From: an uncultured Pelagibacteraceae bacterium
GTDB lineage: Bacteria > Pseudomonadota > Alphaproteobacteria > Pelagibacterales > Pelagibacteraceae
Assembly: GCA_902597335.1 (NCBI GenBank)
Contig: CACJXK010000001.1
Location: forward strand, 124,001 to 188,000
Length of the DNA stretch: 64,000 bases
Direction: 5' to 3'
Below, in pieces: positions 42,246-61,010 of the stretch (the stretch's first letter is position 1; each line of letters begins with the position of its first letter). The position numbers and the translations under genes are program-made. Below the pieces are notes generated by a model, which saw nothing but the letters and a program-made list of their open reading frames with translations, was not told the origin of the DNA and made no database searches.

Positions 42246-43616
42246 ATGAAATACGTAAGCACAAGAGATAATTCTAAGGAATATAGTTTTGAAGAGGTTT
42301 TCATCAAAGGCCTTGCCGATGATGGAGGACTTTATGTACCTACATCTTTAAAAAAATTTAGTTTAGATGAATTATCACAGCTTAAAAATCTTAATTATTA
42401 TGATTTATCTACTGAGGTAATTAATTTATTTTCATCCGATTTTATATCTAAGAATGATCTTTCAGCATTAATTAAAAAATCTTATTCGACTTTTAGAGAA
42501 AAAGAGGTTGTTAAAATCTCCAATCTTGGTGATCTAAAATTGTTAGAATTATTTCATGGTCCTACATTGGCTTTTAAAGATGTTGCTATGCAGTTTATTG
42601 GCAATTTATATGAATATTATTTAGGGAAAAATGACAAAAAAATTAATATTGTTGTGGCTACTTCAGGTGATACAGGGGCAGCTGCTATTGATGCAATTAG
42701 AGGTAAATCAAATTTAAATATTTTCGTTTTACATCCTAATAATAGAATTTCGCCAGTTCAAAGAAAATTAATGACAACAGTTGAAGATGAAAATGTTTTC
42801 AATATCGCAATTGATGGAAATTTTGATGACTGCCAAAATATTGTTAAGCAAATGTTTTCAGACTTATCTTTTTCAAATTCAATCAATATGTCAGGAGTGA
42901 ATTCTATTAATTGGGCAAGAATTATAGCTCAAGCTGTTTATTATTTTTATACTTATTTTAAACTTGATAGCGGCAAACCAATTTCTTTTTCGGTGCCAAC
43001 AGGAAACTTTGGAGATGTTTTTGCAGGTTATCTTGCAAAAGAAATGGGATTGCCCATAGATAAACTTATTGTTGCAACTAATGAGAATGATATTTTGCAT
43101 CGAGCAATTTCTAAAGGTGATTATGTTTCAAAAAAAGTTAAAGAAACACTTTCTCCAAGTATGGATATTCAGTTAGCAAGTAATTTTGAAAGATTAATTT
43201 ATTATGTGAATAATTCTAATTCTGGCATTACATCAGATATAATGAAAAAAGTTAAGAATAATGAATATAAAATAGAAAAATCAAACTTAGACATTATCCA
43301 AAAAGATTTTATTTCAGAAAGTTGTGATGAAAATGAAACTTTAGAAATTATAAAACAACATTTTGACAAAAGTAGTGTCATATTAGATCCTCATACTGCA
43401 GTTGGAGTAGGGGCTGTAAATAAGCTAAATTTTAGTGATTGTGTGGTTTTATCTACTGCACATCCATGTAAATTTCCAGCTGCCACAGATAAGGCTATAA
43501 ATAAACATGAAGAATTGCCTAAAGAGCTTCAATATGTTCATAGTAAAGAGGAAAATTTTCAACTATTAAAAAATGATACAGAGGCAGTAAAAAATTTTGT
43601 TAAAAGTAAATTATGA
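42246..43616 (+). CDS. thrC: Threonine synthase
   Basis: 456 residues. PLP enzyme converting O-phosphohomoserine to threonine. The N-terminal MKYVSTRDNSKEYSFEEV and LADDGGLYVP are typical of the longer bacterial/fungal form. The PLP lysine is in GPTLAFKDVAMQF near residue 108, the phosphate loop in VATSGDTGAAAIDAI, and SVPTGNFGDVFAGYLAK is near 245. thrB is found 2 kb further on the other strand. It overlaps the peroxiredoxin gene by 4 bases. Confidence 0.96.
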   Translation: MKYVSTRDNSKEYSFEEVFIKGLADDGGLYVPTSLKKFSLDELSQLKNLNYYDLSTEVINLFSSDFISKNDLSALIKKSYSTFREKEVVKISNLGDLKLLELFHGPTLAFKDVAMQFIGNLYEYYLGKNDKKINIVVATSGDTGAAAIDAIRGKSNLNIFVLHPNNRISPVQRKLMTTVEDENVFNIAIDGNFDDCQNIVKQMFSDLSFSNSINMSGVNSINWARIIAQAVYYFYTYFKLDSGKPISFSVPTGNFGDVFAGYLAKEMGLPIDKLIVATNENDILHRAISKGDYVSKKVKETLSPSMDIQLASNFERLIYYVNNSNSGITSDIMKKVKNNEYKIEKSNLDIIQKDFISESCDENETLEIIKQHFDKSSVILDPHTAVGVGAVNKLNFSDCVVLSTAHPCKFPAATDKAINKHEELPKELQYVHSKEENFQLLKNDTEAVKNFVKSKL

Positions 43617-44098
43617 AGCTAAAAGTTAATGACCAAATTCCAGATATAAAAATCTTCCATTTAGTTGATGGCGAACCTAAGGAACAAAATATATCTGAGG
43701 TATTAGGATCAAAAAAAATAATATTATTTGGTTTACCTGGTGCATTTACAGCTACATGCTCTAAATTTCATTTACCAGGTTATGTTGAAAATGCTCAACA
43801 AATCTTAGATAAAGGTATTGATAAAATATTTTGTTTAGCTGTTAATGACCCTTATGTAATGAATGCTTGGGGTGAGGCGAATAATATAGGAGAAAATATA
43901 ACTATGTTAGCTGATCCTTATTTGTTATTTACTAAGCTAATAGGTGCTGAAGTTGATAGAAACTCAAAAGGTATGGGCATGAGATCAAGCCGTTATGCAA
44001 TGGTTATAGAAAACCTTAAAGTTCAAAGTATTCAAGAAGAAGAAGAAACTAAAAATTGTGGAATATCCTCAGCAGAGGAAATTTTAGGTATTATTTAG
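43613..44098 (+). CDS. Peroxiredoxin, Prx5-type
   Basis: 161 residues. Thiol peroxidase reducing H2O2 and organic peroxides. The peroxidatic Cys is in LPGAFTATCSKFHLPGYV near residue 49, with the family's Thr three before it. The AVNDPYVMNAWGE segment and RSSRYAMVIE (active-site Arg) follow. A second Cys in NCGISSAEEIL near 151 could act as resolving Cys. ATGA overlap with thrC. It probably takes electrons from glutaredoxin or thioredoxin. Confidence 0.93.
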   Translation: MKLKVNDQIPDIKIFHLVDGEPKEQNISEVLGSKKIILFGLPGAFTATCSKFHLPGYVENAQQILDKGIDKIFCLAVNDPYVMNAWGEANNIGENITMLADPYLLFTKLIGAEVDRNSKGMGMRSSRYAMVIENLKVQSIQEEEETKNCGISSAEEILGII

Positions 44099-44102
44099 CA
44101 AG

Positions 44103-44120
44103 AAGGGGCGTTCTGTTGCC
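44103..44120. repeat. 18-bp direct repeat, copy 1
   Basis: AAGGGGCGTTCTGTTGCC, unusually G/C-rich for this genome. It is identical to the copy at 44919, 816 bases away, in the same orientation. On the minus strand it lies 14 bases beyond the stop of the 124-aa Cys/His protein and can form a short GGGC-N8-GCCC stem. Confidence 0.8.
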
Positions 44121-44134
44121 CGGCAATTAAGTAT

Positions 44135-44509
44135 TTAAAGTTCCCATCTTTCTGCTATCCATATTTTTATTTCTTCATCAAACTTAGGATATTCTAAAGT
44201 GAATCCAAATCTTTTCTTCTTTTCTTCAAATTTACAACCAAACAATAATTCCATTTTATCTGTATTAAAAAATCCACGAACTTTTACTGCACTTAAGTGT
44301 TTACACTCTTTTACCATTAATCCCATTTTATACATGCCGCCATCAACAAATGGTGGAGAAGTTAAATTGTTATAGATATGGGTTTTGCCACACGTACAAT
44401 CAAAAGGTTTTCCAGTATATGGACTCATATTAAATGCTTGTGGTGCTTGAGAATATGGTATCCACATTTTTATTTTTTTTTCCAGTTCTTTAGTAGTTAG
44501 TTTAGACAT
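44135..44509 (-). CDS. Cys/His-motif small protein A
   Basis: 124 residues. Family not recognised. Two putative metal-binding clusters: FDCTCGKTH (Cys38, Cys40, His44) and KECKHLSAVKVRGFF (Cys69, His71). The same two clusters, same order and similar spacing, occur in the 102-aa protein encoded 15 bases upstream, so the pair look like tandem paralogs. No signal peptide or membrane helix; the ends are rich in Lys, Glu and Trp. A structural zinc site is plausible from CxCx3H...CxH. Function unknown; the pair sits between copies of an 18-bp repeat. Confidence 0.72.
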   Translation of the reverse strand: MSKLTTKELEKKIKMWIPYSQAPQAFNMSPYTGKPFDCTCGKTHIYNNLTSPPFVDGGMYKMGLMVKECKHLSAVKVRGFFNTDKMELLFGCKFEEKKKRFGFTLEYPKFDEEIKIWIAERWEL

Positions 44510-44524
44510 AAAAACTGGAATTAA

Positions 44525-44833
44525 TTAAAGTCCTCTTTTTTTAACAATTTCATCTGATAAACTTATTGACCATGTTGCTTCAGAAACACATGTCTGAGAA
44601 AATATTCCTTTAATTCTTACTTTTGTATAGTGTGACGAACATTTAAATAAAACTTTTACAGGTCTAAAATTTGCTATCTGTTGAATAGATGGATCATTAA
44701 CTCCATGTGTATCACCACAACCACAATCAAAACCTAGATTCCTATAACCCGATGTATCTATAACCCCAGGTGGCATTGGATTATCATCGTGAATAAATTC
44801 TTTAAGTTCTTCCTCTGACTTAATTACTTTCAT
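44525..44833 (-). CDS. Cys/His-motif small protein B
   Basis: 102 residues, paralogous to protein A. GFDCGCGDTH gives Cys37, Cys39 and His43; FKCSSHYTKVRIKGIF gives Cys65 and His68. The N-terminal helix MKVIKSEEELKEFIHDD is acidic and lacks the Trp-rich region of A. Cytosolic by sequence. It is first in the two-gene unit; 113 bases separate its start from rnhA and hold the second 18-bp repeat. The number of shared Cys/His positions is too high for chance, but the ligand set is inferred. Confidence 0.7.
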   Translation of the reverse strand: MKVIKSEEELKEFIHDDNPMPPGVIDTSGYRNLGFDCGCGDTHGVNDPSIQQIANFRPVKVLFKCSSHYTKVRIKGIFSQTCVSEATWSISLSDEIVKKRGL

Positions 44834-44918
44834 TGTTAATCAAATCATTATCTATCAGTAATTTCAATATATTTTTAATAAGGGTTTATTGACTAATTTA
44901 AAATCAAAAAAAAATAAA

Positions 44919-44936
44919 AAGGGGCGTTCTGTTGCC
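44919..44936. repeat. 18-bp direct repeat, copy 2
   Basis: Exact copy of the element at 44103. On the minus strand it lies 10 bases beyond the rnhA stop and is followed by TTTTTATTTTTTTT, so together with its GGC-N8-GCC dyad it could serve as a weak intrinsic terminator. Both copies therefore sit just 3' of minus-strand genes. Confidence 0.8.
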
Positions 44937-44946
44937 AGGTACCCTG

Positions 44947-45369
44947 TTAGGAGTTTGCAGCTTCTCTAGCAATTAAATCTACCTCATTGTTTAAAACATC
45001 TGTAGAGTGGCCTTTGACCCAACTCCATTTTATTTGAAATTCATTAGTCATTTGATCTAATTCAGTCCAGAGATCTTTATTTTTAACAGGTTGTTTACTA
45101 GCTGTTTTCCATCCATTTTTTTTCCAATTATGTATCCACTCTGTAATCCCTGACTTCACATATTTGGAATCTGTAAAAATTTGAACATTGCTCCCTTTAG
45201 GAATTTTTTTAAGGGCTTTTATTGTAGCAAGCAACTCCATTTGATTATTTGTTGTATTTTTTTTTCTTCCCTTTATATGAATTTTTTTATTATCATCTAT
45301 AATAATAGCAGCCCAACCACCATTTCCTGGATTACCTAAGCACGATCCATCAGTATAGATTTTTATCAT
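44947..45369 (-). CDS. rnhA: Ribonuclease HI
   Basis: 140 residues. Cleaves RNA in RNA:DNA hybrids. It opens IYTDGSCLGNPGNGGWAAI with the first catalytic Asp at residue 7. The Glu follows in TNNQMELLATIKAL, the next Asp in QIFTDSKYVKSG, then WVKGHSTDVLNNEVD with the flexible-loop His and the final Asp. Its start overlaps the thrB stop by one base (TAATG). rnhB is also in the window, at 61 kb. Confidence 0.96.
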   Translation of the reverse strand: MIKIYTDGSCLGNPGNGGWAAIIIDDNKKIHIKGRKKNTTNNQMELLATIKALKKIPKGSNVQIFTDSKYVKSGITEWIHNWKKNGWKTASKQPVKNKDLWTELDQMTNEFQIKWSWVKGHSTDVLNNEVDLIAREAANS

Positions 45370-59846: not shown

Positions 59847-60916
59847 TTTGTAGGTCTTAGTCTTTGTCGCAAATCATCAATTGGCTTTAAAGAATTTCCA
59901 GATTTATAATGCCAAAATGTCCATCCATTACAACTTTCTGCACCAATAATTTTTGCTGCCACTTTATGGATTGATCCCTCTGATTGTTGATATTTTATAC
60001 TACCATCTACCATAATTTTGGCATTTACTTTTTTTTTTTGATCATAAATTTCTGTTCCAGGTTTAATTAAACCCATTTCAACCAATGACCCAAAAGGAAC
60101 TCTTGGTTTAGATCTGTTATTTTGTAGAGTATCCAGATACTCATCTTTTATGATATTTGTATTCTCTAATCTTTTCTTTGTAGCATCAAAATAATATTTT
60201 TCTTTTTCAATTCCAAAATAATTTCTACCTAATTTTTTTGAAACAACAGCTGTAGTACCTGATCCTAAAAATGGATCTAAAATGAAATCATCTTTATTTG
60301 ATGAGGCTAATATTATTCTATGCATTAATGATTCTGGTTTTTGAGTAGAATGAACTTTTTTTCCATTATTTTTTAATCTTTCTTTTCCACTACAAATTGG
60401 CAGACTCCATGTGGATCTCATTTGTAGGTCATCATTTAAACATTTTAATGATTGATAATTAAAAGTATATTTGGATCCTTCGCTCTTAGATGCCCAAATA
60501 AGCGTTTCATGCGCATTGGTAAACCTCGTCCCTCTAAAATTTGGCATTGGATTATTTTTATTCCAAATCACATCATTTAATATCCAAAAACCTAGATTCT
60601 GGATTGTAGTACCTACTCTAAATATATTGTGGTAACTACCTATAACCCAAATCGTTCCATCCTTTTTTAAAATTCTTTTACATTCTTTTAACCACTCAAA
60701 AGTAAATTTATCATAGCTTTTAAAACTTTCAAATTGATCCCATTTATCATTAACAGCATCCACTTTAGATCTATCTGGTCTACTTAATTCTTTTTTTAAT
60801 TGAAGGTTGTAAGGAGGGTCAGCGAAAATAAGATCAAAAGTTTCGTCAGGAATTTTCTTCAATTCCTTTAAGCTGTCTCCATTAATAATTTTATTTTTAA
60901 AAGTTTTAACACTCAT
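59843..60916 (-). CDS. ccrM: CcrM-type adenine-N6 DNA methyltransferase
   Basis: 357 residues. Orphan solitary methylase that in alphaproteobacteria methylates GANTC and times the cell cycle. Beta-class order: catalytic DPPY at 33-36 (IFADPPYNLQL), then the SAM motif DPFLGSGTTAVV near 225. The C-terminal RAMA domain (about 265-357) includes GSLVEMGLIKPGTEIY and NGWTFWHYK and is characteristic of CcrM. No restriction enzyme is nearby. Three GANTC sites cluster upstream. The gene lies 75 bases from rnhB. Confidence 0.93.
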   Translation of the reverse strand: MSVKTFKNKIINGDSLKELKKIPDETFDLIFADPPYNLQLKKELSRPDRSKVDAVNDKWDQFESFKSYDKFTFEWLKECKRILKKDGTIWVIGSYHNIFRVGTTIQNLGFWILNDVIWNKNNPMPNFRGTRFTNAHETLIWASKSEGSKYTFNYQSLKCLNDDLQMRSTWSLPICSGKERLKNNGKKVHSTQKPESLMHRIILASSNKDDFILDPFLGSGTTAVVSKKLGRNYFGIEKEKYYFDATKKRLENTNIIKDEYLDTLQNNRSKPRVPFGSLVEMGLIKPGTEIYDQKKKVNAKIMVDGSIKYQQSEGSIHKVAAKIIGAESCNGWTFWHYKSGNSLKPIDDLRQRLRPTN

Positions 60917-60933
60917 TTTTTAAATATTAATTA

Positions 60934-61010
60934 GACTCCAGAGAAGAGACTGCGTCAACCTGTGATTGAATTATTTTGAGTCTACTTGTTGCTATTTTTT
61001 TTTAAGACTC
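60934..61010. promoter_or_regulatory. GANTC cluster upstream of ccrM
   Basis: Three GANTC sites lie within 77 bases: GACTC at 60934, GAGTC at 60978 and GACTC at 61006. The first two are in the gap before ccrM and the third is in the end of rnhB. At this base composition GANTC is expected only about once in several hundred bases. In Caulobacter the methylation state of GANTC sites controls ccrM itself. Confidence 0.55.

Follow-up and report, generated by a model that had tools for sequence, protein, structure and literature searches.

The window, that is, the whole stretch of 64,000 nucleotides analysed here, contains two adjacent small genes, p102 and p124, located between rnhA and prx (Table 1). 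Both open reading frames, together with the Cys/His motifs by which they had originally been singled out, are present on the minus strand. The genes run in the same direction with p102 first, and 15 nt separate its stop codon from the start codon of p124. The original prediction delimited the pair at 44135-44833 and left out two copies of a short repeat that bracket it. The segment between the repeats encodes p102 and p124 only; a recombinase gene is absent, and the base composition (30–31% GC) is unremarkable. The window as a whole is devoid of tRNA genes. A bablM sRNA (RF01784) is located at window positions 60913-60982 on the minus strand, with a score of 47.6 bits, which is above the gathering score.

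Table 1. Features of the rnhA-prx locus, in window coordinates.
Feature	Position	Strand	Description
prx (peroxiredoxin, named from sequence)	43613..44098	+	conserved convergent flank of the insertion site
whole mini-cassette (proposed)	44105..44936	-	repeat - spacer - p102 - p124 - repeat, 816-bp period
right att-like repeat	44105..44120	-	identical 16 bp, cassette-type left flank TTAATTGCCG
p124	44135..44509	-	124 aa, FDCTCGKTH...KECKH...RGFF; downstream of p102
p102	44525..44833	-	102 aa, FDCGCGDTH...KCSSH...KGIF; upstream gene of the pair
left att-like repeat	44921..44936	-	reads GGCAACAGAACGCCCC (minus strand); adjoins the stop codon of rnhA
rnhA (ribonuclease HI)	44947..45369	-	conserved flank of the insertion site

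The bracketing sequence is an exact 16-bp direct repeat. The window holds two copies of it, and 0.04 would be expected even with three mismatches allowed. The flanks of the two copies are unlike each other: the copy on the rnhA side has ...GGGTACCT in front of it, resembling the 3′ end of ssrA, whereas the other copy is preceded by ...TTAATTGCCG. Other cassettes end in ...TCTAATGCCG. The only other copy in the source genome (G000, 87% complete) is found at C10:5870-5885 and constitutes the 3′ end of ssrA, which encodes a permuted alphaproteobacterial tmRNA; the number of exact copies expected in the genome from base composition is about 1e-5. In an Rfam scan of the locus, the only meaningful signal was the tail of alpha_tmRNA. 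The 16-mer is referred to below as the core.

The rnhA loci of 30 genomes were read, and they present the rnhA-prx junction in several states. In G227, the two genes are 33 nt apart and a single exact core lies between them, which represents an empty site. A single core that is degenerate but recognisable is present at the junction in G212, G172, G215, G223, and G244. An unrelated gap of near 30 nt with no core separates the genes in G230, G213, and G231, and others have none. In G240, the closest relative found (rnhA 95% identical), the gene pair is missing and two imperfect cores stand 88 nt from each other; the downstream flank TTCTTGCTAAATAATA is common to G240 and the window. A different small insert adjoins an exact core at the same junction in G101, and G264 carries a gene of 98 aa between the core and prx. 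The filled site of the window is known from one assembly. Because the relatives are empty at this position or filled differently, the comparison of sequences marks the junction as a place at which inserts are gained and lost.

The core is also found far beyond this junction. Only exact copies were counted, so that the figures are lower bounds, and many of the genomes compared are incomplete single-cell or metagenome assemblies. On this count, 157 of 201 same-genus genomes contain the 16-mer, and 63 of the 201 have it in two or more copies (tallied by reading the table); a reversed-pattern control gave none. The listed tandem copies lie on one strand, with a spacing of 239–3136 bp and a median of 1.3 kb (26 intervals). 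Arrays begin at the tmRNA gene in L010, L053-L056, and L147, and up to eight exact or near-exact copies of the ssrA 3′ end are arranged around small ORFs in L053 (3268-6580), L054 (3359-8436), and L055 (3902-7451). Core copies also occur directly after pnp and before fabI (L043 4028, L057 3894), and the pnp end is apparently a further insertion site. Others are located near a hydratase/M24 peptidase neighbourhood (L052, L059, L158). Most cassettes of the arrays encode between one and three small proteins, which are unknown or secreted. Recognisable among the cargo are a PDC-S11 defence candidate (E 2e-123), an MrcB_N-HNH protein, a trypsin-like protease, and an ABM monooxygenase, and in G217 a type II methyltransferase adjoins an ssrA core. 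No integrase was seen in the arrays that were read.

Two further observations concern the surroundings of the core. The sequence TTTCCAAAGGTTTCCGTTGTCC recurs directly after it in several genomes (e.g., L044 4157, L045 4412, L018, and L050); it can form an imperfect hairpin with the core and is perhaps a recombinase arm site. A scan of viral contigs for the core returned 14 matching contigs. In eight of the 14 (L124-L127, L130, L131, L133, and L136), the core is situated within the 3′ end of a tmRNA gene. Another core-bearing contig, L135, consists of GC-rich phage DNA. None of the 14 contigs yielded an integrase-attP pair.

As had been proposed, p102 and p124 are diverged paralogs. With p124 as the query, the only matches in its own genome were itself and p102 (E 3.6e-4, 26% identity). 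The Smith-Waterman score of the two proteins is 70, a value reached by 0 of 2000 shuffles (25.6 +/- 4.6, Z 9.7). In comparison with its 67% ortholog L140 of G304, p102 has a dN of 0.27 and a dS of about 2.5; for p124 and its 61–62% ortholog L061, the values are 0.28 and about 2.1, with dS near saturation in both cases. Judged from such substitution patterns, both genes are under purifying selection, which supports their coding status.

The protein family to which they belong was assembled stepwise by profile searches. The first step yielded members in G001 and G168, the former being the C-terminal domain of a 308-aa protein that is apparently membrane-anchored. The next step yielded L061-L066, where L062 is the G001 locus and L066 the G168 locus. 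Further same-genus members were found in G213, G304, G316, G865, G911, G271, and G945, although those of G213 and G316 seem to be identical with L061 and L063. Members also occur in G587 and G814, which are Alphaproteobacteria at a greater distance. Any family member at E<=1e-3 is present in 9 of 399 same-genus genomes, and one of the nine, G246, has a weak match with stops. Conservation as a two-gene unit extends to one other genome, G007, in which a second tandem pair has genes overlapping by ATGA; most relatives are single genes.

The relatives are scattered over unrelated loci. Family members stand beside core repeats in three genomes, namely G000 (the window), G001 (L010), and G271 (L143/L158). 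In the ssrA island of G001, the family gene overlaps a restriction-type MrcB_N-HNH gene of the same unit. About 12 of the 15 family loci are not beside an ssrA-type repeat, and several of the relatives away from the repeat have tRNA genes at a distance of no more than a few kb. Since most loci have no adjoining ssrA-type repeat, the gene family is not tied to the ssrA-end element. In two cases (L061 2490-2798 and L144 1863-2162), a relative is adjoined by a neighbour of about 100 aa, and the two neighbours are alike (...EERNxIIKILENLxFDEKK...); this neighbour is a possible functional partner.

Common to all 14 aligned relatives are four residues that are candidate metal ligands, namely C, C, H, and a later C. 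C37, C39, and H43 (p102 numbering) are invariant in the 14-sequence alignment, and the third Cys was assigned by eye, as a gap shift of 1-3 columns splits it there. The pattern C-x-C-G-x2-H...C is conserved across the family down to about 20% identity. Five conserved ligands had been claimed. Four of them hold, and the second His does not: it appears as C-x-H (CKH) in one paralog and as C-x2-H (CSSH) in the other, and it is missing from most relatives.

The AlphaFold2 models of p102 (pLDDT 77) and p124 (pLDDT 85) agree in the order of their elements, which begin with a short strand and a helix at the N terminus and continue with a hairpin that bears CxCGxxH and then a four-strand meander. The third Cys is placed in the turn between meander strands two and three (residues 65-67 in p102 and 67-70 in p124). 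According to the reported secondary structure of the models, from which the placement was read, the predicted ligands sit in turns of the same sheet region. The conserved pattern and the common element order bear out the earlier suggestion of a real small fold. Given the ligand conservation and the models, the C-x-C-G-x2-H...C set of these small beta-rich domains most likely binds one structural zinc per domain.

Comparisons with known proteins gave little to which this fold could be related. Foldseek and VIA-align searches of both models against the PDB, and of p102 against viral models, returned nothing convincing; RelE, HigB, BrnT, WD40, and PH structures recurred as weak rows, all with Z below 4. 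Scans of both proteins and their relatives with Pfam, NCBIfam, PHROG, and PADLOC produced no convincing match, and PDB sequence searches gave chance-level matches only (BiP, cytochrome c555). A PADLOC CARF-HEPN match of p102 (E 0.006) was weak, occurred in 1 of the 14 members, and was taken as chance, as were the weak PHROG matches of L061. The proteins were not found in the viral contigs and phages searched, so these give no sign of a direct phage origin. The protein family is undescribed and has no named relative.

We consider it probable that p102 and p124 are carried as cargo by a very small, site-specifically inserted mini-cassette, rather than being a retained duplicate, and that their products bind zinc. 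Site-specific recombination within a short core is suggested because the core is conserved, its flanks are unlike, the tandem arrays keep to one strand, and sites are encountered both empty and refilled. A recombinase supplied in trans would exchange strands within the core, so that cassettes enter and leave while the 3′ end of the host gene stays intact. Excised circles were not observed. One candidate enzyme is a tyrosine recombinase encoded on C6 of the source genome; alternatively, a phage or plasmid integrase may act. The C6 protein has 317 aa (L122 1132-2085, not on the window contig) and is the sole tyrosine recombinase (PF00589) found in G000, which is incomplete (87%). It is related to XerD, XerC, and the integron integrases but falls well below their cut-offs (30 bits against TIGR02249, for which the cut-off is 265). 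At least one PF00589 protein is present in 13 of 13 genomes searched, and most have just one match. The C6 recombinase gene adjoins sugar-kinase-like genes.

There are other ways to read the locus. The 16-bp repeats might be copies of a dispersed terminator-like hairpin or MITE-like repeat (GGGGC...GCCCC plus a T run) that spread to gene ends, so that the pair came to lie between two of them by chance or through ordinary recombination. The copy at ssrA indeed forms a GC stem of 5 bp with T after it, and copies are found at the 3′ ends of ssrA, rnhA, and pnp. However, the window copy at the cassette end has CCG upstream in place of the ACCT-side stem flank and therefore does not make the same full hairpin. 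Tandem copies moreover lie on the same strand and enclose different small cargo each time; G227 has an empty rnhA-prx junction with a single copy, and G240 has a refilled one. We regard spreading of such a repeat as unlikely. An old resident duplication, in line with the view from which the analysis started, held by selection for a core cell function and with the repeats as incidental neighbours, is the least credible reading of all. The strong purifying selection on both genes and the second tandem pair of G007 would suit it, but a family confined to 9 of 399 same-genus genomes is rare, its relatives are scattered over unrelated loci, and the pair is absent from rnhA-prx in the closest relatives. 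The idea of a duplicate that a streamlined genome has retained finds no support, in view of the rarity of the family and the position of the pair in a swappable cassette.

It could also be asked whether the mobile segment carries a toxin-antitoxin-like module with a RelE/HigB or BrnT fold, as two adjacent small genes on such a segment would bring to mind. RelE, HigB, BrnT, and colicin D RNase chains do recur among the structural matches, at Z 2.3-3.5. With every Z below 4 and Foldseek E about 1, these matches are weak, and p102 and p124 are paralogous to each other, unlike a toxin and its antitoxin. Most relatives are solitary genes. Furthermore, the residues conserved in the family are Cys and His, which differ from RelE-type catalytic residues. 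Such a module is quite improbable here, and we hold to the mini-cassette with probably zinc-binding cargo.

What the cargo does can be approached only speculatively. Sequence, family, and fold searches lent no support to a particular cellular role through a structure or family match. The leading guess is that the proteins act in phage-host or element conflict as small adaptors or regulators, possibly as a heteromeric pair, because the family is rare, mobile, and divergent and has a restriction-type partner; we would sooner expect this guess to fail than to hold. A broader proposal, put forward tentatively and at somewhat less than even chances, is that SAR11 maintains an integron-like cassette economy. 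In it, the tmRNA 3′ end would serve as the recombination site, cassettes of one to three small genes would be added one behind another at ssrA and, secondarily, at the ends of a few other genes, the recombinase would be provided in trans, and the zinc-knuckle family would be part of the circulating cargo.

No marine bacterial group is more abundant than SAR11, whose genome is the textbook example of streamlining. How its genes turn over without obvious mobile elements is a question left open so far. The swapping in and out of units of one to three genes, bracketed by a 16-bp tmRNA-end core and visible as filled and empty sites, would answer it with a concrete mechanism that can be tested, and it would mean that even streamlined genomes are able to acquire and shed genes singly or in pairs. 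The units bracketed by the core also delimit cargo that is worth screening for anti-phage activity. To this, the p102/p124 family adds an undescribed, probably zinc-binding domain, predicted from sequence and models and found mainly in the cassette cargo pool. In the part of the literature that was searched, we found no report of ssrA-end cassette arrays in SAR11, only precedents; since the search was partial, the novelty of the SAR11 cassettes is provisional.

Several known systems share features with the unit described here. At the protein level, the C-x-C-x3-H...C arrangement of the p102/p124 family is common to generic Cys/His zinc-knuckle proteins. Integron cassettes resemble the SAR11 arrays as small, mostly unknown, single-gene units with a short repeated site and recombination presumably in trans. 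They differ in that the SAR11 site is the ssrA 3′ end and in that no IntI-type integrase was found in G000, at 87% completeness (its single PF00589 protein scores 30 versus 265 bits). Wilhelm et al. 2007 did not find attC sites at the SAR11 hypervariable regions and noted one integrase gene in HVR2 (PMC2217521). Tycheposons are elements of 4–200 kb with a tyrosine recombinase that are located at tRNA genes, and recurring 20-bp tRNA ends are found in a tRNA-Lys additive island (PMC10872708). Both the tycheposons and the additive islands at tRNA ends, which belong to streamlined bacteria of the sea and of fresh water, are, like the SAR11 unit, site-specific and accompanied by partial repeats of the end of a structural-RNA gene. 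The window unit differs from tycheposons in being about 0.8 kb long, in lacking a recombinase, and in having a tmRNA-end core and not a tRNA target.

Among published systems, the ssrA-GI family of Dehalococcoides comes closest; in it, islands with variable cargo and 20-bp ssrA repeats are arranged in tandem after ssrA, and 15 of 31 islands lack an integration module (PMC3146451). As in ssrA-site islands, direct repeats of the ssrA 3′ end bound the window unit, in this case as two exact 16-bp copies, and the single-copy empty site seen in relatives is matched here by G227. The window unit does not encode an integrase, which is likewise true of those 15 of 31 Dehalococcoides units (PMC3146451). 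The islands sit at ssrA, as do the arrays of the relatives (L010, L053-L056), whereas the window unit sits at rnhA-prx. In comparison with the Dehalococcoides islands, the SAR11 units are mostly 0.2–3 kb in size with one to three genes, and the SAR11 core apparently serves as a site also at rnhA-prx and at the ends of other genes.
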